Assembly (NCBI GenBank): GCA_903936705.1
Contig: CAIZWN010000005.1
Span: forward strand, 1 to 64,000
DNA: 64,000 nt
Origin: an uncultured Myxococcales bacterium
GTDB taxonomy: Bacteria > Myxococcota_A > UBA9042 > DTJE01
Direction of reading: 5' to 3'
Part shown: one piece after another, positions 2,258 to 14,075 of the stretch
Position numbering within the stretch: the first letter of the stretch is position 1
Layout: each line of letters begins with the position of its first letter
Program-made: the position numbers and the translations under genes
Notes under the pieces: model-generated
What the model saw: the letters and a program-made list of their open reading frames with translations, nothing else
Told to the model about the DNA's origin: nothing
The model's database searches: none

Positions 2258-3697
2258 TTAACTTCGATCGCGAATTGCCTTGACTAGCGCGACCACGCGA
2301 CCGGCCACCGCGGACGGGGTGCCTGACCTGTCCAAGTCTCTAAGCATCGTCTTCAGCCCACGGTTGTGGAAGTACGTGTCGTAGTTGGCAATGACACGAT
2401 GAAGTAGTTCTTTAGCCTTGCTGCCAGTACAGCCCACCGGAACCACGGCCAGACCGATTCTTGAAGCAATCGCAAATTCGCTTTCCATGCCATCCGCCGT
2501 AACGATGCTGTTTGAAGAATCATGTTTGTTCCCGAACAGGAACACCGCAACACCGGCGTGCGAGATCATCTCTTCCCGGTAGGCTGTCCAGCGCCGGTTT
2601 CGTTCTGTGGGATCGGCAATCCCCTGCGGGAATGGCCTCAAGATGACCCGCTCTTGCAGCACCTGGGTTCCCTCCCTGTCAAGTTGTTCTAGTACGCCGT
2701 TGACGACGAAGGGGCCGACCCCAAGACCGAAGCCGGAGACGATGCCGAACCCGGCCTCAACCAACTGTCTTGAAATCTCGGCTATTAGAACTTGAGCGGT
2801 TGACTCGTCGAAGGGAGCGTAGTCAGCCGCACTTCCGGAAACGAAGACACGGGACATGCGAAACCGACGATGAATTCGCTGGATCACCTCCGTGTACTTG
2901 GCAAAGGAATCGAAGAGAAGACCGATGATGCCGTACCGCTTGAGGTCGCGGACCTGGAGATCCTGTTTAGCGCATGCGTAGAGGTACTTCTCGTTTGTCT
3001 TGAAATCCGCCCGCTGAACCTTTCGGAGGAGGCAGTAATGCTCCCGTCGGTTTTCGCCTAGAAGGACACGAATTCTGGCAAGGATGTAGTTGAGATTCGG
3101 ATCGCTGAAACTGAAGCCGATGAATAGAAAAGTCTTCGATACAAGGTCTCCCTGGAGCGCCAAGGAGAAAAGGTGGCGCGTTGATGAGTCGTAGGACTCG
3201 TAGTCGTCTTTGGTCAGTACCGCTTTGCCCGGACGAGATACGTCGCCGTGCATCTTGTACACGATTGCATCGCGCCCAGGGGCGGTCGTTGTGAGGCTAT
3301 CGGGTTCAATCTTCACGTCGGGGATTCTCTTGCTTACCTTGAGCGCGTCCTCGATGAGGGTGTCGTAGTTGGTTGTCCAGTAGGTTCTGATTGGGAGAGA
3401 AGCCAGTATACGATGGTTCTCGGTCGAGGCAGCCCGCTTCGAAAACTCGTTGACCAGGGCTTGATTGATCCGGTTACGACCACCCCTTTCGTTGACATGG
3501 TACTGGGCGAGGGTGACAAGGTCATCCTCGCGGTCGACATCGAGCCCCACGTCCGTGGCAATGCCTCGCATGAGTCCCTTCCAGTCGACCATGCCCGCAG
3601 GGATCGAAAGTCCCGCGCCAGCGAAAACAGCGGCATTCTCATCGTGAAGAGCCTGGACATAGGTTTCGATGAAGGAGTCAACAGGGTCCTTAGGCAC
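2258..3697 (-). CDS. thsA: Thoeris defence effector ThsA (SIR2-SLOG NADase)
   Basis: A 479-aa protein, close to the 476 aa of the Bacillus cereus homologue. Residues ~1-260 form a SIR2-like NAD hydrolase: glycine loop FAGAGLS near residue 28, TTNYD with Asn110, KMHGD with His150, and GFSFSDPN near 195. Residues ~280-479 form a SLOG (STALD) domain starting RVFVSGSA, with a glycine-rich GFGLGVG turn. In known Thoeris systems the SLOG domain binds a cyclic ADP-ribose isomer made by ThsB and activates NAD depletion. The chosen GTG start has a GGAGG ribosome site 7 nt upstream; a TTG at 3784 gives a longer unlikely form. It lies downstream of thsB on the same strand, 160 bp apart. Confidence 0.92.
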   Translation of the reverse strand: MPKDPVDSFIETYVQALHDENAAVFAGAGLSIPAGMVDWKGLMRGIATDVGLDVDREDDLVTLAQYHVNERGGRNRINQALVNEFSKRAASTENHRILASLPIRTYWTTNYDTLIEDALKVSKRIPDVKIEPDSLTTTAPGRDAIVYKMHGDVSRPGKAVLTKDDYESYDSSTRHLFSLALQGDLVSKTFLFIGFSFSDPNLNYILARIRVLLGENRREHYCLLRKVQRADFKTNEKYLYACAKQDLQVRDLKRYGIIGLLFDSFAKYTEVIQRIHRRFRMSRVFVSGSAADYAPFDESTAQVLIAEISRQLVEAGFGIVSGFGLGVGPFVVNGVLEQLDREGTQVLQERVILRPFPQGIADPTERNRRWTAYREEMISHAGVAVFLFGNKHDSSNSIVTADGMESEFAIASRIGLAVVPVGCTGSKAKELLHRVIANYDTYFHNRGLKTMLRDLDRSGTPSAVAGRVVALVKAIRDRS

Positions 3698-3857
3698 GAA
3701 ACACCTCCAGGAGTCGGCAGGAGAGCCGGGACGTACGACGTGCAGCGGGTAACGATCTTGGCACGTTCCATGGCCGGTTGCCAAGGGCGCTGCGTCCGTC
3801 CAACGACAGTCTGCTTGTGCGGAGAGGCGCCGAAGGTCCCGAGGATGGGGCCACCCG

Positions 3858-4355
3858 TCAACAGTTGTTACGGATCTCGATGGCCTCCTCCACCCACTCG
3901 TCGATGTACTCCTTGATGTGGTCGTAGACGTTGACGCTTCCGGTGTAGGGCGGAGTGTACGTCTTCGCGACCGAGGACAGTTTCCTGCCGCTCGTCAGGG
4001 TGAAGTCGGAGAAAGGATTGTCGCCCTTGTTCGCTTGGTTTCCACGGCTGTCCTTCAAGTTGTGGACGTAGATCCCGAGTACACCCTTCTTCGCATTCCA
4101 CGCCTGCTCGATCTCGTACTTGATCCACTTTCGGCCCGCGGTGTTCTCCCCGATGAGGACGATGGCGCAGGATCGCCCGTGCAGTTGGTCATCGATCCAC
4201 TGGGCGATCGCCTTATCCCCACCCTTCTTGACGGCTTCCCAGTCGTTGTCCGTCACGGGGGTGTTGCCCTCGACAACCCCCATGTTTCGGACTTGGGATG
4301 CACGCCACGCATCGGCCTTGTGGTGGAAACTGAAGAACACGCGCCGAGCCATCAT
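3858..4355 (-). CDS. thsB: Thoeris TIR sensor ThsB
   Basis: A 165-aa TIR-like protein (DUF1863). The N terminus RRVFFSFHHKADAWR is the diagnostic ThsB strand/loop; CAIVLIGENTAGRKWIKYEI carries conserved Glu81, aligned with the functional Glu of characterised ThsB; LGIYVHNLKD and GDNPF complete the domain. In established systems ThsB responds to phage infection by making a cyclic ADP-ribose isomer that activates ThsA. The first of two tandem ATGs is chosen because GGGAGGAG lies immediately upstream. It comes first in the thsB-thsA unit. A TACACT hexamer upstream (4397-4402 region) could be a -10, without a clear -35. The single ThsB is intact; a second ThsB-like gene survives only as a fragment at 1862-2239. 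Confidence 0.9.
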   Translation of the reverse strand: MMARRVFFSFHHKADAWRASQVRNMGVVEGNTPVTDNDWEAVKKGGDKAIAQWIDDQLHGRSCAIVLIGENTAGRKWIKYEIEQAWNAKKGVLGIYVHNLKDSRGNQANKGDNPFSDFTLTSGRKLSSVAKTYTPPYTGSVNVYDHIKEYIDEWVEEAIEIRNNC

Positions 4356-5211
4356 TCTCCTCCCATCTTGGGAAAACTGCCGGAGTGTACCACCCCGGAG
4401 TTCGCTTGGATGACAGCCACAGGCCATCTGGGCCGCCTTCATCCCAGGTAGGGTATCTGGGTGGTGCGACACGCCGTTTGCCCACGGCGAGGAGGTCGCC
4501 GAAGACGACGTCAATACGAAAGGGTCGGTGTGCGCCTTAGGGCCTTGGGGCCCTGGAGCCAGGCAGCCGTTGCCCCTTTACGGAGCTGTTCTCGTGCCGC
4601 CCAACTACCTCTGGGCAGCGCAGTCTGTCGCTACCTTCGATCTGGCTGAGAACCAAGATTCAAGACGTCCGACCGGGGGCGCGAGATGTCGTGGGACCGG
4701 GCTGCGGATCTTCGGAATTTGGACTCCGCTCGGGTAGAGCCAGGCCAGATCGCAGGGGAACGAACAGGCTCTTCAGGTGATATGCAGCGGGGGAAAAGGG
4801 GGCGAAGGCCGGATGGCTGGCGAGAGGGAGGAGCGGGTCGGAGTGGACGGGGAACTGGGGTTATATGCACCGAGGCGGTCACCGGAGGGACATGGCGTCC
4901 AGCGCGCAGAGGACCCAGGACGGACCGCGGTTCAGAACGTGGGTGCAGATCTGGGTCGTGCGGACGGAACGGTGGCCCGGGAGTTCCTGGACACTTCGGA
5001 TGTCGGCTATCGGAACCACCAAGGCCACTGGGTCTGGCCCCTCCACACTGAACTGCCCTCTTTTCGACCCGCAACGCGGGCTTGCGCCTCCCGAAACCGA
5101 CCAAACCGCCCCGAATATGGTGATAAGAGTCATGAGCGGGACCGTTCGCCTGCCCTGGCGACGCCGCTCACGACGGTCTTCCCCGTTTCCCACCCCACAT
5201 GGAGGTCCCAG
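4356..5211. other. 856-bp interval with no intact gene
   Basis: Between thsB and the ubiquitin-like gene I find no reading frame with convincing start, ribosome site and conserved motifs on either strand. The only recognisable content is the tail of a tyrosine recombinase on the minus strand (4882-5004). The rest is GC-rich and probably decayed mobile DNA plus the promoter region of the conjugation cassette. Confidence 0.6.
4882..5004 (-). pseudogene. Relic C terminus of a tyrosine recombinase (IntI-like), catalytic Tyr lost
   Basis: The minus strand reads DIRSVQELPGHRSVRTTQ followed by ICTHVLNRG. This matches the end of integron/phage integrases, usually DIRTVQELLGHxDVxTTMIYTHVLNRG. The conserved GH is kept, but the catalytic Tyr of IYTHV is Cys (ICTHV). 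Upstream of DIR the same frame shows no integrase homology, so only about 40 codons survive. The enclosing frame runs on to 5682 but is a shadow of the conjugation genes. It is evidence of an older insertion or integron-like element. Confidence 0.7.
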
Positions 5212-5418
5212 ATGCGCGTGAAGGTCCTGAAACTCGGTTCGTCCGCCCACGAAGTGGATGCCACCCCCGGTTCCACCGTCCAGGAGGTGCTCGACAAGGC
5301 CAGCCTGCCGCACGGCGGGCACGCGATCAGCGTCAACGGCCTGGGCGCCGGGCTGTCCACGGCCCTCGGCGAGGGCGACATCGTGACGCTGGTGCCCAAG
5401 GTCGAGGGTGGCCGGTAG
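5212..5418 (+). CDS. Ubiquitin-like beta-grasp protein (MoaD/ThiS-like) ending GG-Arg
   Basis: A 68-aa protein with a MoaD/ThiS/ubiquitin-type beta-grasp pattern: strand MRVKVLKLG, a turn, TPGSTVQEVLDKA helix, a middle strand (HAISVNG), GDIVTLVP final strand and a flexible tail KVEGGR. The Gly-Gly is the site expected to be adenylated by the E1 enzyme, but one Arg follows it, so maturation by a peptidase would be needed first; the JAMM protease gene two positions downstream is the obvious candidate (inference). A GGAGG site precedes the ATG. It heads the set Ubl, E2-like, JAMM, E1, with 198 bp before the next gene. Alternative roles in sulfur transfer cannot be excluded, but no sulfur-pathway genes are nearby. 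Confidence 0.85.
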   Translation: MRVKVLKLGSSAHEVDATPGSTVQEVLDKASLPHGGHAISVNGLGAGLSTALGEGDIVTLVPKVEGGR

Positions 5419-5616
5419 CCGAAGCGCTTCCAGCCACACCGAACTGCCCTGCCTGACCGCGATCACCGTCCACCCGCCCCCGGACACCCACGTTAGCTCC
5501 GTAAACGGCCGGTTTCCGGCGCAGGGGCAAGCACGCGCGAGCGCGTTAAGGGAATCCCGGGCGGGTACGGGTTCGCGGTCGGGCAGGGTAGCCCCGCAAA
5601 CCAGGAGGTCCCGACC

Positions 5617-7059
5617 ATGTTCGACAACGTGGCCCACCCGGGCCTCAAGGCGCTGCTGGCGTTCGAGGCCACCCGGCACCAAGTCCCGATGGAGTACCGC
5701 GAGACGGACGCCTTCCCGCCTCCGTCCACGCCGTTCGTACCGCGCGTCGAGGTCCTGGCGTACTGCGGAGGCGAGGTCGGCGGCCTGTCCATCGCCCTGC
5801 CCGGAGGCAGCACGGCCTACGACGGACCGCTGGCCGCTGCATGCGGCCTGCTGGATGAAGAAATCCGGGTGGGCGACGTTCTGGTCGGCGGCATCACCGG
5901 CAACCGCATCGTGCTGCGCCTATCACTGGAAGCGCTGTTCCACCAGGCGGACCCGCCGTCAGACGCCACGCTGGACCCGACGACGCCCACCGTCAACCTG
6001 GCCCACCAGGTGTTCGACGCAATCATGGGGAAGGCCCTGTCCCAAGCTGTACAGAGCGTTCGCGCCCACGACTGGCGCACCGAAGCGGACACCTACACGC
6101 AGATGAAGTTGACCATCATGGACCGCAGCACCCGCGAATGGCGGGAGGAACTGTCCCGGAACGAGCGCAACATCGACGAGAAGACCTGGGAGATCATGGG
6201 CCTCGTCACCCGCAACGAACGCCTGCGGGAGGCCCTGTCCGGCTTCCAGGACGCCACGCGCATGGCCCACCGGCGCCGGGCCGTCGAGGAACACGGCGAG
6301 ATGGTGAAGATGCTGGGCGCTGGCGCCATCCACAACCTGCACTGCAACGACGGCCAGGTGGACTTCGAGACAGACAGGGTCACCATCGACTACGACGACT
6401 ACGACTACGTGCTGGGCCCGTTCCGGGTGGAAATGAACCTCGCAGAGTCCGCGGTGCGCATCACCGGGTTGCCCGGCGCGCCGAAGGTCGACGGTTACTA
6501 CCACCCGCACGTCGCGTCGGGAGGCACGCCCTGCCTGGGCAACATGGCCCCGATCATCGCGAAGACGATGGGAGCGGGCGACGTGGTCGGCGCCATTGGC
6601 ACGGTGCTGGAGTTCCTGCGGTCCTACAACCACGGGAACGGCTACGTGGACCTCATGCGCTGGAACCCCGACTACGAGGACGACGACGACAAGCACGAGT
6701 CCTGCTTCGACAACAGTTCCTGCCACGACTGCGTGGTCTGCTCGGACAGCGACTGCCCATACCGAGACGGGTGCGAGCACCGCTGCTGGGAAAACCACGA
6801 CCGCCAGGACTGCATCGACTGCGGGGACTGCGGGTACCGCGACACGGCCATCCAGCAATGCCGCGAGGAACACGAGGACACGCCGTGGGCGTGCACCGAA
6901 TGCAGCAGTTCGTGCTCGTACGCCGGCGACATCTCGGAATGCCACGACAGCCACAACGGGGGTCGCTGCGGCGACTGCCCGCTGACCGACTGCGTGCGGC
7001 ACCCGCGCGACGACAAGGAGAACGACGACGCGACCGAGGCCGAGGCCCCGGCGGCGTAG
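5617..7059 (+). CDS. E2-like ubiquitin-conjugating domain protein with Cys-rich C-terminal tail
   Basis: A 480-aa protein with three visible parts. Residues 1-~150 are an unassigned N-terminal region and ~150-225 are charged and helical. Residues ~230-345 resemble an E2 (UBC) fold: YVLGPFRVEM strand, then GYYHPHV and TPCLGNM, matching the E2 HPN...CL signature with His296, His298 and candidate catalytic Cys306, followed by a helix (VGAIGTVLEFLRSY) in the place of the post-Cys E2 helices. An acidic linker DYEDDDD leads to residues 363-459, which carry 18 Cys in 97 residues, many as CxxC pairs with interspersed His, fitting a multi-zinc domain. Start ATG has AGGAGG upstream. JAMM follows after 9 bp. 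The E2 call comes from motif and context; the zinc-binding call is inference. Confidence 0.78.
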   Translation: MFDNVAHPGLKALLAFEATRHQVPMEYRETDAFPPPSTPFVPRVEVLAYCGGEVGGLSIALPGGSTAYDGPLAAACGLLDEEIRVGDVLVGGITGNRIVLRLSLEALFHQADPPSDATLDPTTPTVNLAHQVFDAIMGKALSQAVQSVRAHDWRTEADTYTQMKLTIMDRSTREWREELSRNERNIDEKTWEIMGLVTRNERLREALSGFQDATRMAHRRRAVEEHGEMVKMLGAGAIHNLHCNDGQVDFETDRVTIDYDDYDYVLGPFRVEMNLAESAVRITGLPGAPKVDGYYHPHVASGGTPCLGNMAPIIAKTMGAGDVVGAIGTVLEFLRSYNHGNGYVDLMRWNPDYEDDDDKHESCFDNSSCHDCVVCSDSDCPYRDGCEHRCWENHDRQDCIDCGDCGYRDTAIQQCREEHEDTPWACTECSSSCSYAGDISECHDSHNGGRCGDCPLTDCVRHPRDDKENDDATEAEAPAA

Positions 7060-7068
7060 GAGGGACCG

Positions 7069-7839
7069 ATGAAGTACACCACCGGTATCACCCAGGTCTG
7101 GCTCGACCTGGCCGCCCACGAGAAGTTGTGGGCGTGGACCCGGATGGCCAAGGGCGAGGTCAGCATGCTGGGCCTCGTCGAGGACGGCGACGGCGGCCCG
7201 GCGATCACCGACCTGTTCCTGATGCGGCAGACCTGCACGGCGGCCAGCACCGACATGGACCAGGCGGACGTGGCCCGGCTGCTGTTCGACCTGGGGGCCG
7301 CCGGCATCGAGGGCCAGTTGCGGGCCTGGGTCCACAGCCACGCGGACATGGCGGTGTTCTGGTCCGGGACCGACGACAAGTGCATCGAGGGCCTCGGCGG
7401 CAACCCCTACATCGTGTCGCTGGTCGTGAACCGGAAGGGCGACGTCCGGGCACGTGTCGACGTGTTCCAGCCGCTGCGGATGGTCATCGACGACGTGCCG
7501 GTGAAGATCCGCGTCCCCGACCTGGGCCTCGAGGGGCCGTGCAAGGCGGAGTTCATGTCCAAGGTCACCGAGGTCCAGACCTTCCCGGCCCTCGGCCTGG
7601 GCCTCCCGGGCTGCGTGCCGTCCGGGCTTCCGTTCAACGGGCAGTCCGACCTGTTCGGCAGCCGCCCGCACCGGCGGTCGTTCGCGATGATGGACCTGGA
7701 CGAGATGGAAGCGGCCGTCTACCGGGGCGAGATGTCCGTCGACGAGTACATGCGGGCGGTGGACGGCGACGCCTTCATCGACCCGTTCGTGGACACCGGC
7801 AACGAGCCGGGGGAGGTGGCCGATGCCCGGCGTGCGTGA
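7069..7839 (+). CDS. JAMM/JAB-family metallopeptidase (deubiquitinase-like)
   Basis: A 256-aa protein with a complete JAMM zinc motif: Glu30 in KGEVSMLG, then HSHADMAVFWSGTD giving His89-x-His91, Ser99 and Asp102 with exact HxHx7Sx2D spacing. JAMM enzymes cleave ubiquitin-like proteins after Gly-Gly; here the likely substrates are the Arg-capped tail of the 5212 protein and its conjugates. The C-terminal ~110 residues are unassigned. GGAGGG precedes the ATG, 9 bp after the E2-like gene, and the gene overlaps the E1 gene by 17 bp, indicating one transcript. The protein is distinct from the RadC further downstream, which also has the JAB fold. Confidence 0.9.
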   Translation: MKYTTGITQVWLDLAAHEKLWAWTRMAKGEVSMLGLVEDGDGGPAITDLFLMRQTCTAASTDMDQADVARLLFDLGAAGIEGQLRAWVHSHADMAVFWSGTDDKCIEGLGGNPYIVSLVVNRKGDVRARVDVFQPLRMVIDDVPVKIRVPDLGLEGPCKAEFMSKVTEVQTFPALGLGLPGCVPSGLPFNGQSDLFGSRPHRRSFAMMDLDEMEAAVYRGEMSVDEYMRAVDGDAFIDPFVDTGNEPGEVADARRA

Positions 7840-8536
7840 AGCCGTCCTGAAGTTCCCGGACCCCGACGGCGTCCGCGAGGTCGCCGTCCTGCCCGAGGCC
7901 GGCTTCGTGCGGCAGCGAGACATCCTGCCCTGGGAGAAGCTGCAGGCCGCCCGGGTCACGGTCATCGGCGCGGGGGCCGTCGGGTCGTTCACGGCGCTGT
8001 CCCTGGTCAAGATGGGCGTGGGCACCGTCGAGGTGTACGACTTCGACACCGTGTCGGTCGAGAACCTCGGCCCGCAGTGGTTCCGGATGTGCGACCTGGG
8101 ATGGCCCAAGGTCGAGGCCCTGGCCGACCAGCTGGCGGCGTTCGGCGGCAACGTGGTCGCCCACGCCGAACGCTTCCTGGCCCAGCCGGTGTCGGGCATC
8201 GTGGTCTGCACCGTGGACTCGATGGACGCGCGCATCGCCGTCTGGCGGCACATCCGCAAGTGCCGGCGCGTCGAGTTGTTCCTGGACGCCCGCATGGGCG
8301 CCGAGGTCGGGAAGGTCCTGGCCGTCCGGCCGAACGACCCGGAGGACTGCCGGTTCTACGAGGCCGAACTGTACCCTTCCACCGAGGCCCTGCGCGCCCC
8401 GTGCACGGCACGCAGCACCATCTACTGCGCGTCCGGGCTGTCGGCGTTCCTGGCCGCCACCGTCGGCAACCACCTGGCCGGCCGCCGATACCGCCGGGAA
8501 CTGGTCGTGGACTTCCGGCAGGGCATCCTCATCTGA
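7823..8536 (+). CDS. E1-like ThiF/MoeB-family adenylating enzyme
   Basis: A 237-aa single Rossmann-type E1 domain. VTVIGAGAVGS (residues 46-55) is the nucleotide loop; VYDFDTVSVENL with Asp73/Asp75 and Asn81 is the ATP/Mg region; WPKVEAL places the conserved Lys at 96; CTVDSMDAR holds the conserved Asp132. Cys194 in APCTARST is the best candidate for the catalytic thioester Cys. It should adenylate the Ubl C terminus and pass it to the E2-like Cys. Length is that of minimal ThiF enzymes without an extra C-terminal domain. The ATG lies 17 bp inside the JAMM gene. It resembles ThiF-type E1s of plasmid and phage conjugation cassettes. Confidence 0.9.
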   Translation: MPGVREAVLKFPDPDGVREVAVLPEAGFVRQRDILPWEKLQAARVTVIGAGAVGSFTALSLVKMGVGTVEVYDFDTVSVENLGPQWFRMCDLGWPKVEALADQLAAFGGNVVAHAERFLAQPVSGIVVCTVDSMDARIAVWRHIRKCRRVELFLDARMGAEVGKVLAVRPNDPEDCRFYEAELYPSTEALRAPCTARSTIYCASGLSAFLAATVGNHLAGRRYRRELVVDFRQGILI

Positions 8537-8806: not shown

Positions 8807-9451
8807 ATGCACGAGTTGCGGGAACGCATGGCCGCGTTCGGCGCGTCGGTGCTGTCCGACGCCGAGGTCGTGGCCTTGATCATCGGTACCAATGCCGACC
8901 CCGCGCTGGGTCGGCGCGTCCTCGATGCCGTGGGCACCCCCCACGGCCTGCTGAGCCGGCGGCTGCGCGAGTTGTCGGGCATCCCGGGCATCGGCCCGCA
9001 GCGGGCCCAGCGGCTGATGGCCGCCATCGAACTGGGCCGACGCGCGGCCGTCGCGATGGAACCGGGCCGGCCGCTGATGTCCGCTGGCGACGTCGCCGAC
9101 CGGCTGGCCCGGCTGAAGTCCGAGCCCGTCGAGCAGTTCGTGGCGATCAGCGTGAACGCCCGGAATCGCGTGCTGGGCGAGTGGACCGTCGCCACCGGCT
9201 GGGAGTCCGGTGTGAACCTGACGCCCCGGCAGGTTTTCGTGCTGCTGATGAAGGAGGGCGCCAGCCGCGTCCTGCTGGCCCACAACCACCCGTCGGGCGA
9301 CCCGACGCCCAGTCCCGAGGACGTGCGCTTCACGCAGCGCCTGGTCGAGGCCGCCCGCACCCTGGACATCCGGGTTCTAGACCACGTCATCGTGGCCAGC
9401 GGCGGCTTCGCCAGCATCCGGGAGCAGGTACGGGAGATGGAGTTCGGGTAG
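8807..9451 (+). CDS. radC: RadC-family JAB-domain protein
   Basis: A 214-aa RadC homologue of typical length. The N-terminal part has a helix-hairpin-helix-like segment (SGIPGIGPQRAQRL), and the C-terminal RadC/MPN domain has HNHPSGDP with His159, His161 and Asp165. RadC proteins are often carried by mobile elements; despite the name, a repair role is poorly supported. An AGGAGA site lies upstream of the ATG. It follows the small membrane peptide and precedes the annealing-protein and nuclease pair, so it may belong to the recombination module of the island rather than to the conjugation cassette. Confidence 0.9.
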   Translation: MHELRERMAAFGASVLSDAEVVALIIGTNADPALGRRVLDAVGTPHGLLSRRLRELSGIPGIGPQRAQRLMAAIELGRRAAVAMEPGRPLMSAGDVADRLARLKSEPVEQFVAISVNARNRVLGEWTVATGWESGVNLTPRQVFVLLMKEGASRVLLAHNHPSGDPTPSPEDVRFTQRLVEAARTLDIRVLDHVIVASGGFASIREQVREMEFG

Positions 9452-9553
9452 TCCACCCTCGCACGGGCCATCCGGATCCGGTTGTTCGATCTTTCCCCCC
9501 TGTCGACCCCGGGATTCCAGTCGACCCCCACCCCCAACAACAAGGAGCACCTC

Positions 9554-10105
9554 ATGTCCAACGTCATCCCATTGCGTTCCTCCTCCCAGGCCGCCAACGC
9601 CGGGCTCCAGCCCCACCCCGACGCCTCGAACCCCGTCGCCGCCCTCGTGGCGACGATCGACAAGGCCCTCGGCGACACCTGGTCCTTCGACCTAGTCCAT
9701 CACGAGGTCGTCGGTGACGAAACCATCGTTTTCGCGAGCCTCGTCATCGACGGCAAGCACCGGATCGGCATCGGCGGCACCAGCGTGAAGGGCTCGCTGG
9801 TGGACCGGCTGAACGCCGCCACCCTCGACGCCCTGACGCGCGCCGGGGCGTGGATGGGGATCGCCGCCACGACGGCGACGGTGCCCCAGGCGACGCCCGA
9901 ACCGGAGCCCGCCAGCCCGGCCGAGGCCGGGTCGAGAATCACCCGGAAGCAACTGGACTACGCCATCAGCCTGGCCCGGGACCGCGGCGTCGCCCGGGAC
10001 AAGCTGGCAGCCCGGTGCCTCGCCGAGTTCCAGAGGAAGCCCGAGTACCTGACGCGGGCGCAGGCGTCCGAGTTGATCGAATCCCTGAAGAAGGAGGCCG
10101 CGTGA
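9554..10105 (+). CDS. Rad52/22-like single-strand annealing protein (predicted)
   Basis: A 183-aa protein. The N-terminal ~110 residues follow the Rad52/Sak pattern: W-S-F strand, a hairpin ending LVIDGKHRIGIGG, then a helix LNAATLDALTRAGAWMG typical of these annealing proteins. A Pro/Ala/Glu linker (~115-130) leads to ITRKQLDYAISLARDRG and LTRAQASELIESLKK, a helical tail often seen after phage recombinase domains. The ATG at 9554 has AAGGAGC upstream. Its stop overlaps the exonuclease start (TGATG), a coupling expected for a phage-type two-component recombination pair. The assignment is from fold-level pattern and context. Confidence 0.65.
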   Translation: MSNVIPLRSSSQAANAGLQPHPDASNPVAALVATIDKALGDTWSFDLVHHEVVGDETIVFASLVIDGKHRIGIGGTSVKGSLVDRLNAATLDALTRAGAWMGIAATTATVPQATPEPEPASPAEAGSRITRKQLDYAISLARDRGVARDKLAARCLAEFQRKPEYLTRAQASELIESLKKEAA

Positions 10106-11007: not shown

Positions 11008-11895
11008 CTATTCCTGCTTCGTTCCAGGCTGATTGGGTTTCCTGGGGGCGCGCATGAGCAGTGCCTGGCAGACCTCTCTGACCAACTGATCGATTTGCCC
11101 CATCAAATCGGTAGTCGTACGAAGATCGGTGACAATCCAAAGGTTTGCGATAACCTCCAGGACCTCGCGTTGACGCATGTCCCGGGGCTTGGTCGGTCCG
11201 GTCAAGTAGGCGAAAAGTTCCGTGGCGAAATCCGATCGGTAAACCCTCTCGACGTTACCGGAACTTGAGGCCGGTTCCGGTCGGCTGGAGTCAAGACCGT
11301 AAGCGCTCTTGAACTGCTCGGTTCGTCGCTCCGCCTGCTCGGGAAGATCGCCCATGAGACCTCGAAAAACGTCCGAGGCCCATTCGGCCGCGTAGACACG
11401 GGCCCTGGCCAGCTCAACATCATTCCAGGACCTGGAAGCCCTGCGGCTATCGCCCTGAATGGCGAGAGAAAGCTTCTCTCGAATCCTCGCCTCCAGGTCC
11501 TCGATGTGGCCCCTGGCCATCTCGGCACATTCTAGAAGCGTGCGCTTGATGCGCGCGGCCTGCCTTGCATCTGGAAACGACGTCCGTCCAAGGCTTCTGT
11601 GGTACCGCCTGAGAACCTCGAATTCCGTGGAGTCTGGGGGATGGCTGGTCGATGGCTCTTCGAACAGTTGTGGCACGCTCTCGGAGCGCCCTAACTGCTC
11701 ACCGATCTGTCGAAAGTCTCCCATTCCGAGCTTGGTCCCAAGAGCCGCATTGACGTTCGCCAACGCATCCAACTTGGCTTCTCTACGGGCCTCCTGCGCT
11801 TCCGCCATGTGTTGGAGTTTCAGTGCCCGGGGCTTCGGTCGCCTGGCCCCCCCCTCATGTCCCGCACCAGAGGCACCGTCTCGCTTCTCGGACAT
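11008..11895 (-). CDS. Hypothetical protein, helical and charged
   Basis: A 295-aa protein I do not recognise. The ATG at 11895 is supported by GGGAGGA 8 nt upstream; the frame continues upstream but without a better start. The N terminus (MSEKRDGASGAGHEGGARRP) is disordered and basic; the remainder is Ala/Arg/Glu-rich and predicted helical, with no signal peptide or membrane span and no catalytic motif I can name. It runs opposite to the recombination genes, converging with the exonuclease gene (90 bp apart), and is divergent from the excisionase gene. A cargo or regulatory role is possible; no function is assigned. Confidence 0.6.
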   Translation of the reverse strand: MSEKRDGASGAGHEGGARRPKPRALKLQHMAEAQEARREAKLDALANVNAALGTKLGMGDFRQIGEQLGRSESVPQLFEEPSTSHPPDSTEFEVLRRYHRSLGRTSFPDARQAARIKRTLLECAEMARGHIEDLEARIREKLSLAIQGDSRRASRSWNDVELARARVYAAEWASDVFRGLMGDLPEQAERRTEQFKSAYGLDSSRPEPASSSGNVERVYRSDFATELFAYLTGPTKPRDMRQREVLEVIANLWIVTDLRTTTDLMGQIDQLVREVCQALLMRAPRKPNQPGTKQE

Positions 11896-12227
11896 CTGTT
11901 CCTCCCGACTGAACACCAACGAGCGATCCCTACTCCTGCTCGGGGGAGGCCGCAAGATTCGGAGGGACAAATCTGCAGACTGCCGCCAGCCTGATTCCTT
12001 CGGCACGGCTGCAACTGGGAGGGATCTGCCCGCCGCCCTCGAAGGGGTTTCTCGGATCACCCTTCGCGCTCATGCCCTTGTGCGATCTACAAATCTGAAT
12101 CGCCGCCCGACTTGAAACCTAAGCCTGATGCCGGAGTGGTCTCATGGCGCTGCACGCGACCCGCGGTCGCGGCAGAGCCAGGGAGGCCAGTATTCGAAGC
12201 GACGACACCACCCCAAGGGAGGACAGC
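11896..12227. other. 332-bp divergent intergenic region
   Basis: This lies between the minus-strand unknown gene and the plus-strand excisionase-like gene, so it must hold both promoters. I see no convincing consensus promoter pair, repeat or hairpin in it. Confidence 0.4.
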
Positions 12228-12713
12228 ATGCTGGCAACCGCCACCGGGCGCTCTCCTGAGGAGAGCCCCGGCATCAATCCAGTTGGCGAAGGACTGCCCC
12301 GACGGTGGGCGACCATGGAACCGTCGGTCGATGCGTCGTGGTGGACCCACGACGAGACCCGCAAGCACCTGCGGGTGGACGCCAGGACTCTCGCGGCGAG
12401 GATGCACGAGACGCCTCCGGACATCGAGAAGCCCTGGATCAACTACGGAAAACCCACTAGGCCCTACTACCGCTGGATCGCCAGCAAGGTGGACCGCTGG
12501 TGGATCGAGGTGAACGAATGGCGAGCATCGACAAGCGACAGGACGGGTACCGCGTGCGCTGGCGCGACCCTGACGGGGGCGCGCGGTGCCGGCAGTGCCC
12601 GGACCTCGCGACGGCCCGCAGGCTCCAGCGCGACGTCGAGCGCTGCACCGCCGAAGGACGGCGGTGGACGCCTCGCGACGTTCGTGAAGTCCCTGAACTC
12701 GAGGACGTCCTGA
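12228..12713 (+). CDS. Excisionase-like DNA-binding protein overlapping the integrase
   Basis: A 161-aa frame. Residues ~38-100 read WWTHDETRKHLRVDARTL, then a proline-containing segment and PYYRWIASKVDRWW, which is the Xis/AlpA-type winged helix-turn-helix pattern found beside tyrosine integrases. The start has GGGAGGACAG upstream. The domain ends near 12530, but no stop occurs in frame until 12711, so the last ~65 codons overlap the integrase N terminus in another frame and have a low-complexity Ser/Ala/Thr composition. It probably controls excision direction of the island. The start and domain are believable; the long tail could be a by-product of the overlap. Confidence 0.6.
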   Translation: MLATATGRSPEESPGINPVGEGLPRRWATMEPSVDASWWTHDETRKHLRVDARTLAARMHETPPDIEKPWINYGKPTRPYYRWIASKVDRWWIEVNEWRASTSDRTGTACAGATLTGARGAGSARTSRRPAGSSATSSAAPPKDGGGRLATFVKSLNSRTS

Positions 12714-13642
12714 TGGCCTACGTCCGCGACAAGGCCCGCGTCCTGGCCCCGGGCACAGCCGAGCGCTACGGTCGGAACCTGGTCATCTTCCTCCGCTGGC
12801 TGAAGCAGCGGGAAGGCGGCAAGCGGAAGCTCTACCCGGACATCCTGACACGGAACCTGCTGGCCGAGTTCTACGAGCACCTGGCCATCAAGGGGCGACA
12901 CGGCCGCCCGCGCCAGGACTCCACCCGCCGCAAGATCGTCGAGGTGGTGCAGCTGGCCTGGGAGTGGGCCTACAACGACGACGAACTGGCGGAAGGCGTG
13001 CCCTCGCCGCGCAGCATCGAGATGCGGCGGAAGGAGGGCGCCCCTACCGTCGCACCGACCTGGACCGAGATGGACGCCGTGATCCACGCGTTCCCCGAGG
13101 GCTCCTGGCAGCGCCAGCTGGCCATCGTCCTTCGGTTCACGGGCCTTCGCGTGCAGCAGGCGCTGGGGCTCCGGTGGGACGACGTGGACATGGACGAGGC
13201 CACGCTGACGATCCGTGGCGAACTGGGGAAGAGCCGGCAGGAGCGTCGCGGCCGCATCGTGCCCCTGTCCCCGCATCTGATGAGCATCCTGGCCGGCTGG
13301 GGGAAGCGGGAAGGCTACCTGATCCCCACGAACCGCCAGGCTCGCCGGGAGCGACTGGCGAGGCCCCGCGACCTGGGACGGGCCTGGGACCGGGCGGGCG
13401 TGCGAAAAGGGGCGTGGGAGGGACGCCCCCATCACGCCTTCCGCAAGGGGTTCGTGTCCGAGCTGCGGCGGGCGGGGGCCGACCCCGACGTCGTCGAGGT
13501 GCTGGTGGGCCACAGCCTGGGTCTGCGAGGCGTCTACACGGACCCGGACGCCCTGCCCATGAGGGAAGCGGTCGCGCTCATCCCGCCGATCCAGGAATCC
13601 AGGGTGGTGCTGCGGCTGGAGCCGAAGGAAGTGAAGAAGTGA
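12518..13642 (+). CDS. int: Tyrosine integrase of the ssrA island
   Basis: A 374-aa site-specific recombinase. It has an N-terminal arm-binding-like segment (~1-50), a SAM-like core-binding domain (~60-160) and a catalytic domain with Arg211 (FTGLRVQQALGLRW), Lys238, His306-x-x-Arg309 (HHAFRK), His332 (LVGHSLG) and the nucleophile Tyr340 (RGVYTDPD). All catalytic residues are present. The ATG is preceded by GAGGTGAA. It lies 77 bp from the 3' end of tmRNA and points toward it, the usual geometry of an integrase next to its own attachment site. It probably catalyses insertion and, with the excisionase-like protein, excision. Confidence 0.93.
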   Translation: MASIDKRQDGYRVRWRDPDGGARCRQCPDLATARRLQRDVERCTAEGRRWTPRDVREVPELEDVLMAYVRDKARVLAPGTAERYGRNLVIFLRWLKQREGGKRKLYPDILTRNLLAEFYEHLAIKGRHGRPRQDSTRRKIVEVVQLAWEWAYNDDELAEGVPSPRSIEMRRKEGAPTVAPTWTEMDAVIHAFPEGSWQRQLAIVLRFTGLRVQQALGLRWDDVDMDEATLTIRGELGKSRQERRGRIVPLSPHLMSILAGWGKREGYLIPTNRQARRERLARPRDLGRAWDRAGVRKGAWEGRPHHAFRKGFVSELRRAGADPDVVEVLVGHSLGLRGVYTDPDALPMREAVALIPPIQESRVVLRLEPKEVKK

Positions 13643-13719: not shown

Positions 13720-13760
13720 TGGTGGAGGCGGGGGGAGTCGAACCCCCGTCCAGAAGTTGT
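13720..13760. other. Probable attachment site (tmRNA 3' acceptor/T-arm)
   Basis: The tRNA-like 3' end of ssrA, including the T-arm palindrome GGGGGAGTCGAACCCCC, adjoins the integrase gene. Such symmetric T-arm segments are common tyrosine-integrase targets. The gene is complete here, as expected if the island restores the 3' end on insertion. The crossover segment cannot be set without the second copy. Confidence 0.55.
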
Positions 13761-14075
13761 CCAGGCCAGGATACTACGTGCGTAGTCTTGCAGTGTTTCT
13801 TGCCTTGTCAGCCTGCGACACGCCGACGAGGTGCTTCCCACTTTCGTCTTGAGATTGTTGACCAGGTGGGGAGGTCAACAACCAGCAGTCCTGTGGCTTT
13901 TACACCTTCCCGGCTACTGGACGCCTTACCGGGGTAGATGTCCCTTACGCCGCGTAGGCGTACGAGAAATTGGTATCGGTGTTGGCGGTTAAGCCTTTCC
14001 TGATTACTGACCGGGACCAGGCCCCGGGCACGCACCGTAACTCTTTTCAGCCTCTGTCGAAACCGGAACGCCCCC
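13720..14075 (-). ncRNA. ssrA: tmRNA (ssrA), one-piece, tag ANTDTNFSYAYAA
   Basis: The 5' end GGGGGCGTTCCGGTTTCGAC at 14075 pairs its GGGGGCG with CGCCTCC before the A-CCA at 13720-13723, giving a 7-bp acceptor stem with one G-U. The T-arm is GGGGGTTCGACTCCCCC-like. The resume codon GCC is at 13986-13984 and the tag frame reads ANTDTNFSYAYAA with TAA at 13947-13945. The RNA rescues stalled ribosomes and marks the nascent chain for proteolysis; a clpP gene is in the same window. Length is 356 nt, normal for a one-piece tmRNA, and the CCA end is encoded. Confidence 0.95.

Follow-up and report, generated by a model that had tools for sequence, protein, structure and literature searches.

A compact Ubl-E2-JAB-E1 gene cassette of integrative elements and tailed phages

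Known bacterial ubiquitin-like (Ubl) conjugation systems have been described as host-side defence or plasmid cassettes. In PRTRC cassettes (type 6d of Iyer et al. 2006), Ubl, E2, JAB and E1 are encoded by separate single-domain genes on mobile elements, with the core order C (Ubl)-F-B (E2)-A (JAB)-ThiF. Bil (BilABCD) follows a four-gene Ubl, E2, JAB and E1 logic; BilA has two Ubl domains, BilB a CEHH motif, and BilD an inactive and an active adenylation domain (PMC11354881). CBASS Cap2/Cap3 (types 6a/6b) uses E1, E2 and JAB chemistry, and the Ub-E1-E2-RING-JAMM cluster of Caldiarchaeum subterraneum contains stand-alone Ub, E1, E2 and Rpn11-like JAMM proteins. We analysed a Ubl-E2-JAB-E1 cassette in a 64,000-nt stretch of DNA from an uncultured Myxococcales bacterium (hereafter, the window). 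It shares separate single-domain genes, a mobile location and the order Ubl..E2-JAB-E1 with PRTRC, the four-gene logic with Bil, the predicted enzyme chemistry with CBASS, and stand-alone components with the Caldiarchaeum cluster.

Gene content and active sites of the cassette

The cassette (5212-8536, + strand) consists of four ORFs on one strand, each with a GGAGG motif upstream of its start. The first ORF (5212..5418, +) encodes a 68-aa Ubl with a single ThiS/MoaD/SAMP-like beta-grasp domain, matched by ThiS in the Pfam search (E 1.7e-7) and ending in PKVEGGR. The C-termini of its homologues read GG, GGR, GGSK, GGAR, GGLL or GGNK, and in Myxococcota Ubls the GG is followed by zero to two residues; trimming by the JAB is plausible, although such short tails may not require it. 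The third ORF (7069..7839, +) encodes a JAB/JAMM peptidase, predicted to act in Ubl maturation and as an isopeptidase. Its Pfam match to Prok-JAB was weak (0.023), and the Glu and HxHx7Sx2D that define JAMM/JAB peptidases were both found: E30 and HSH-x7-S-x2-D were invariant, and the JAMM motif was present in 48/48 JAB homologues. Comparison of the JAB profile with the PDB gave as best match an Rpn11-like protein, which we take to be archaeal, from Caldiarchaeum. The fourth ORF (7823..8536, +), which overlaps the JAB ORF by 17 nt, encodes a 237-aa E1/ThiF-type adenylating enzyme matched by ThiF (E 2e-19), whose profile found UBA7 and UBA1 as its best PDB matches. This E1 has no separate large Cys domain; its conserved Cys is C194 in APCTA (nt 8402-8404), and the Cys of the CT motif is kept by nearly all members, a conservation that points to a catalytic role for Cys194. 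The ORFs and motifs thus agree with the initial annotation, which had listed a Ubl ending in GGR, a JAMM protein, a ThiF protein and an overlap of the last two genes.

The second ORF (5617..7059, +) encodes a 480-aa E2-like conjugating enzyme, HPHVASGGTPCLG, identified by profile and fold evidence; no Pfam family matched it. The protein comprises an N-terminal region, a long helix (aa 153-234), a UBC core (aa 208-352; 6238..6672, +) recognized from PDB profile matches and a structure model, and a Cys/His-rich C-terminal tail (C363-C459, 18 Cys; 6703..6993, +) that is predicted to bind Zn and belongs to no Pfam family. When the core was aligned across 31 relatives, just four positions never varied: the H, P, C and G of HP[H/N]...C-x-G. 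In the window these fall in the active site H296-P-H...G-T-P-C306 (6502..6534, +), with the spacing of the classical HPN-x7-Cys motif, and one phage member reads HPNVTLNGHVCFG, near the eukaryotic consensus. When a core HMM built from the 31 relatives was run against the PDB, eukaryotic E2s filled the 60 best matches (best E 1.1e-4) with the active sites aligned. AlphaFold2 modelled the core with a mean pLDDT of 86 and a pTM of 0.80, while the full-length model was of low confidence except in the helix and core. The solved folds nearest to the modelled core were E2, UEV and RWD, with weak scores (E 0.03-0.06, TM about 0.4). As modelled, the core of this protein is a divergent UBC fold; both features of the E2 superfamily, the UBC fold and HPx...Cys, were found, the fold with weak scores, and the E2 assignment of the initial annotation, which depended on this fold, is upheld.

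The Cys-rich tail, which had also been listed among the unusual features of the cassette, is not shared by all members. Similar tails occur in L031, L047, L048, L051 and L066, unrelated Cys-rich tails in L054, L076, L077 and L081, and other relatives have none; because some members lack it, the tail is not essential to the chemistry. Pfam gave no convincing match to the Zn-tail families. The phage E2s at L077:5751-7082 and L081:5084-6991 are fused to long C-terminal modules that contain >20 Cys and look like zinc ribbons or treble clefs stacked together, with a weak DZR match in L077 only. For the cassette as a whole, a chance arrangement can be dismissed, since phages and other families whose proteins are 24-30% identical have kept the gene order and the active-site residues.

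Genomic setting in bacteria and phages

In the window, the cassette has an intact-looking Thoeris pair on one side and, on the other, an integrase located at ssrA. The Thoeris genes, neighbouring defence genes outside the cassette, are ThsA (2258..3784, −; 2.1e-185) and ThsB (3858..4514, −; 1.8e-74, from residue 55). Downstream of the cassette are RadC (8807..9451, +; 2.9e-32), a Rad52/22-like single-strand annealing protein (9482..10105, +), a PD-(D/E)XK exonuclease resembling Cas4 and phage exonucleases (10102..10917, +; 9.4e-29; phrog_1218) and a tyrosine integrase (12500..13642, +; 4.1e-16). PF04098 was detected in 6/8 members of the family of the annealing protein (best 3.8e-11). The Thoeris pair (2258-4514) and the Rad52/22-type nature of the 9482 gene are additions to the initial annotation. 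A 350-aa ORF between nuclease and integrase (11008-12060, −) matched no family in Pfam, PADLOC or PHROGs.

The tmRNA gene (ssrA; 13720..14075, −) adjoins the integrase and is likely the integration target of the island. Beyond it lie the backbone genes folP/dacA (names read from sequence), and another genome (G191) has a syntenic tmRNA-folP-dacA region without the island. The cassette has a G+C content of 69% (GC3 91-97%) and the backbone 61-62% (GC3 71-78%); the Thoeris pair, at 57.6%, is lower in G+C than the cassette and thus probably arrived separately. A direct-repeat search gave no left att site, and no second tmRNA 3′ end was found in the genome. Since the window starts at base 1 of the contig and the genome has a single tmRNA 3′ end, the left end of the island lies out of view. 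ORFs reading as IS21 istA/istB are located at the contig start (11-1802) and are the probable reason that the contig breaks off before this end.

Of 379 genomes searched in the phylum, 14 contain homologues of the E2, none with more than four matches. In several Myxococcota-related genomes the genes again stand in the order Ubl-E2-JAB-E1, often with a Rad52/22-type annealing gene and a PD-(D/E)XK nuclease gene downstream. Other genomic copies have Replic_Relax and TrwB/HerA-like neighbours to one side and DnaG-like and SprT-like ones to the other, which, as far as gene content indicates, reads as a plasmid or ICE-like context. A copy in the same genus adjoins tRNA-Glu and a weakly integrase-like ORF. 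RadC, whose linkage had been listed as a feature of the cassette, was next to it in the window and L031 only, and was rejected as a core part because it is confined to one genus. No target gene was common to all cassette contexts, and no thiamine, Moco or cysteine genes, which would have spoken against conjugation, were found beside the homologues among the neighbours examined. In genome G009, a cassette with a Cys-tailed E2 has a SIR2-TPR protein of defence-like architecture (L047:5187-8366) encoded nearby. Same-genus genomes also contain second, broken Ubl-E2 copies (L034:2842-3861 and L032:9480-10071), one an inverted Ubl repeat and the other with an apparent IS3-type sequence at a contig end. 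An invertible gene was considered for the inverted Ubl duplicate (G191, L034) and the E2 breaks at contig ends (G060) and rejected; these look like decay, IS insertion or contig ends.

Single-sequence searches with the E2 (viral contigs, plasmids, phages) and the JAB (plasmids, phages) gave no match, and the viral relatives were found by alignment-based scans of IMG/VR. These scans revealed 11 JAB and 22 E1 loci on 32 contigs, which are metagenome-assembled and in some cases short; all four genes were present on 24/32 and the Ubl-E2-JAB-E1 order on 22/32. A large terminase was found in at least 20 of the 29 viral records searched. The phage cassettes neighbour genes for DnaB, primases, clamp loader, exonuclease, anaerobic NrdD and RNA ligase, and two phages, each roughly 150-180 kb in size, encode a ClpA/B-like AAA unfoldase just 3′ of the cassette (L064:9245-11776, L065:8965-11484). 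The order kept in relatives and phages supports the initial proposal of a complete and mobile cassette. FpV4, a cultured phage of Flavobacterium, and cr111_1, a crAss-like phage, contain a diverged cassette in which JAB and E1 were matched by profiles; the upstream genes read as Ubl-like and E2-like, without a match to the cassette profiles. The genes 5′ of JAB/ThiF in these Flavobacterium and crAss-like phages (L106:1634-2503, L107:1899-2534) have a Ubl-like start followed by a C-terminal extension, and the Ubl-like stretch of FpV4 ends in KSGGRG. Such a phage system is unmentioned in the 2018/2021 crAss papers, the 2021 comparative jumbo-phage survey and the 2026 jumbo-phage review (full text). 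The novelty of the cassette, judged on literature outside the later Burroughs/Iyer/Aravind surveys and the Bil and Bub papers, is provisional.

Proposed function and alternative explanations

We consider it likely that the locus is a complete, compact Ubl conjugation/deconjugation cassette belonging to a mobile gene pool of integrative elements and tailed phages. From sequence we infer the following route. The JAB would cut off the residue that follows diGly in the Ubl, and the E1 would adenylate the Ubl and probably load it on Cys194, from which it would pass to Cys306 of the E2 for joining to target proteins. Targets would likely be recognized by the N-terminal helix and Cys-rich tail of the E2 instead of a separate E3, the tail possibly being a built-in recognition module, and the JAB may also take the Ubl tag off targets. 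The most likely purpose would be to favour the element by modifying proteins of the host, of competitors or of its own replication/recombination machinery; carriage by phages and ICEs favours such action on the element's behalf. A bolder version, which we regard as doubtful, holds that phages and integrative elements share a Ubl pathway of their own, in which the zinc-module E2 would act as a combined E2-E3 tagging host, defence or rival proteins. The Clp unfoldase neighbouring the cassette in some phages would then be a possible disposal arm, giving viruses their own equivalent of the ubiquitin-proteasome system.

The initial annotation had proposed a mobile or defence-related system; mobility was borne out, and defence was suggested only by the Thoeris neighbours. 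In an anti-phage role, the cassette would tag incoming phage proteins and shield the host of the island, comparable to Bil and virion proteins. Consistent with this role are its immediate proximity to an intact Thoeris pair within an integrase/ssrA island, its mobile, patchy occurrence and the fact that related Ubl operons act as defence systems (PMC10097602, PMC11354881). However, the same cassette occurs in many phages beside replication genes, the Thoeris pair differs from it in base composition and was missing from those neighbourhoods of relatives that were examined, and PADLOC gave nothing past generic E1-E2 matches. Phage carriage suggests a role for the element or virus itself at least as much as defence, with which it is at odds, and we regard a defence role as possible for this island but unlikely.

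Still less probable is a stripped-down plasmid-maintenance cassette of the PRTRC type whose ParB and proteins E and F have been lost. Beyond the common core order, the E1 matched TIGR03736 (PRTRC ThiF) at 5.3e-12, but its 45.6 bits are far below the cut-off of 144.75, and the PRTRC models A, B and C gave no match to the JAB, E2 and Ubl, respectively. Similarly, the E2 profile aligned with PRTRC B of Polaromonas over the Cys motif (p 1.6e-4), but the other PRTRC B proteins showed no significant match, and the classical His-Pro of the window E2 is absent from type 6d E2. In the E1 tree, PRTRC was on a very long branch, and its placement is untrustworthy. A ParB-family gene was not among the annotated neighbours of the window or its relatives; one is present in L111 and L112. 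A sulphur-carrier system for thiamine, molybdopterin, cysteine or tRNA thiolation is very improbable, since the ThiS/ThiF-like Ubl and E1 share their operon with an E2 that has a conserved catalytic Cys, and the neighbours include no rhodanese or biosynthetic genes.

If a mobile conjugation cassette is the correct reading, the complete E1-E2-Ubl-JAB set in many tailed phages would mean that bacterial viruses themselves tag proteins with a Ubl modifier. The cassettes are small and easily cloned, allowing direct study of targets and purpose, and an E2 that combines a near-classical HP[HN]-x7-Cys motif with fused Cys-rich modules bears on the origin of the E2-E3 partnership.

Comparison with described systems

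The initial annotation had set the cassette apart from PRTRC, CBASS and Bil, and the defining features of these systems that were tested did not match. PRTRC is probably the nearest described relative; the window cassette is without the ParB, protein E and protein F of PRTRC, and its family, unlike PRTRC in this comparison, occurs in phages. In contrast to Bil, the window encodes a Ubl with one domain (68 aa), an E2 with HPH-x7-C and a single 237-aa E1. CBASS Cap2 is an E2-E1 fusion that conjugates the CD-NTase, whereas the window genes are separate and include their own Ubl; no CD-NTase was among the annotated neighbours in the window. Compared with the Caldiarchaeum cluster, the window has no separate RING gene, a Cys-rich module is fused to the E2, and the E2 is much more divergent. 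The version in crAss-like and Flavobacterium phages is strongly diverged, with E2 and Ubl unmatched by the window-family profiles, but encodes a Ubl-like protein (SGGRG in FpV4), an E2-like protein (HSH...C), a JAB (HSH...FFSGTD) and an E1 in the same order, beside a primase and a PD-(D/E)XK exonuclease.
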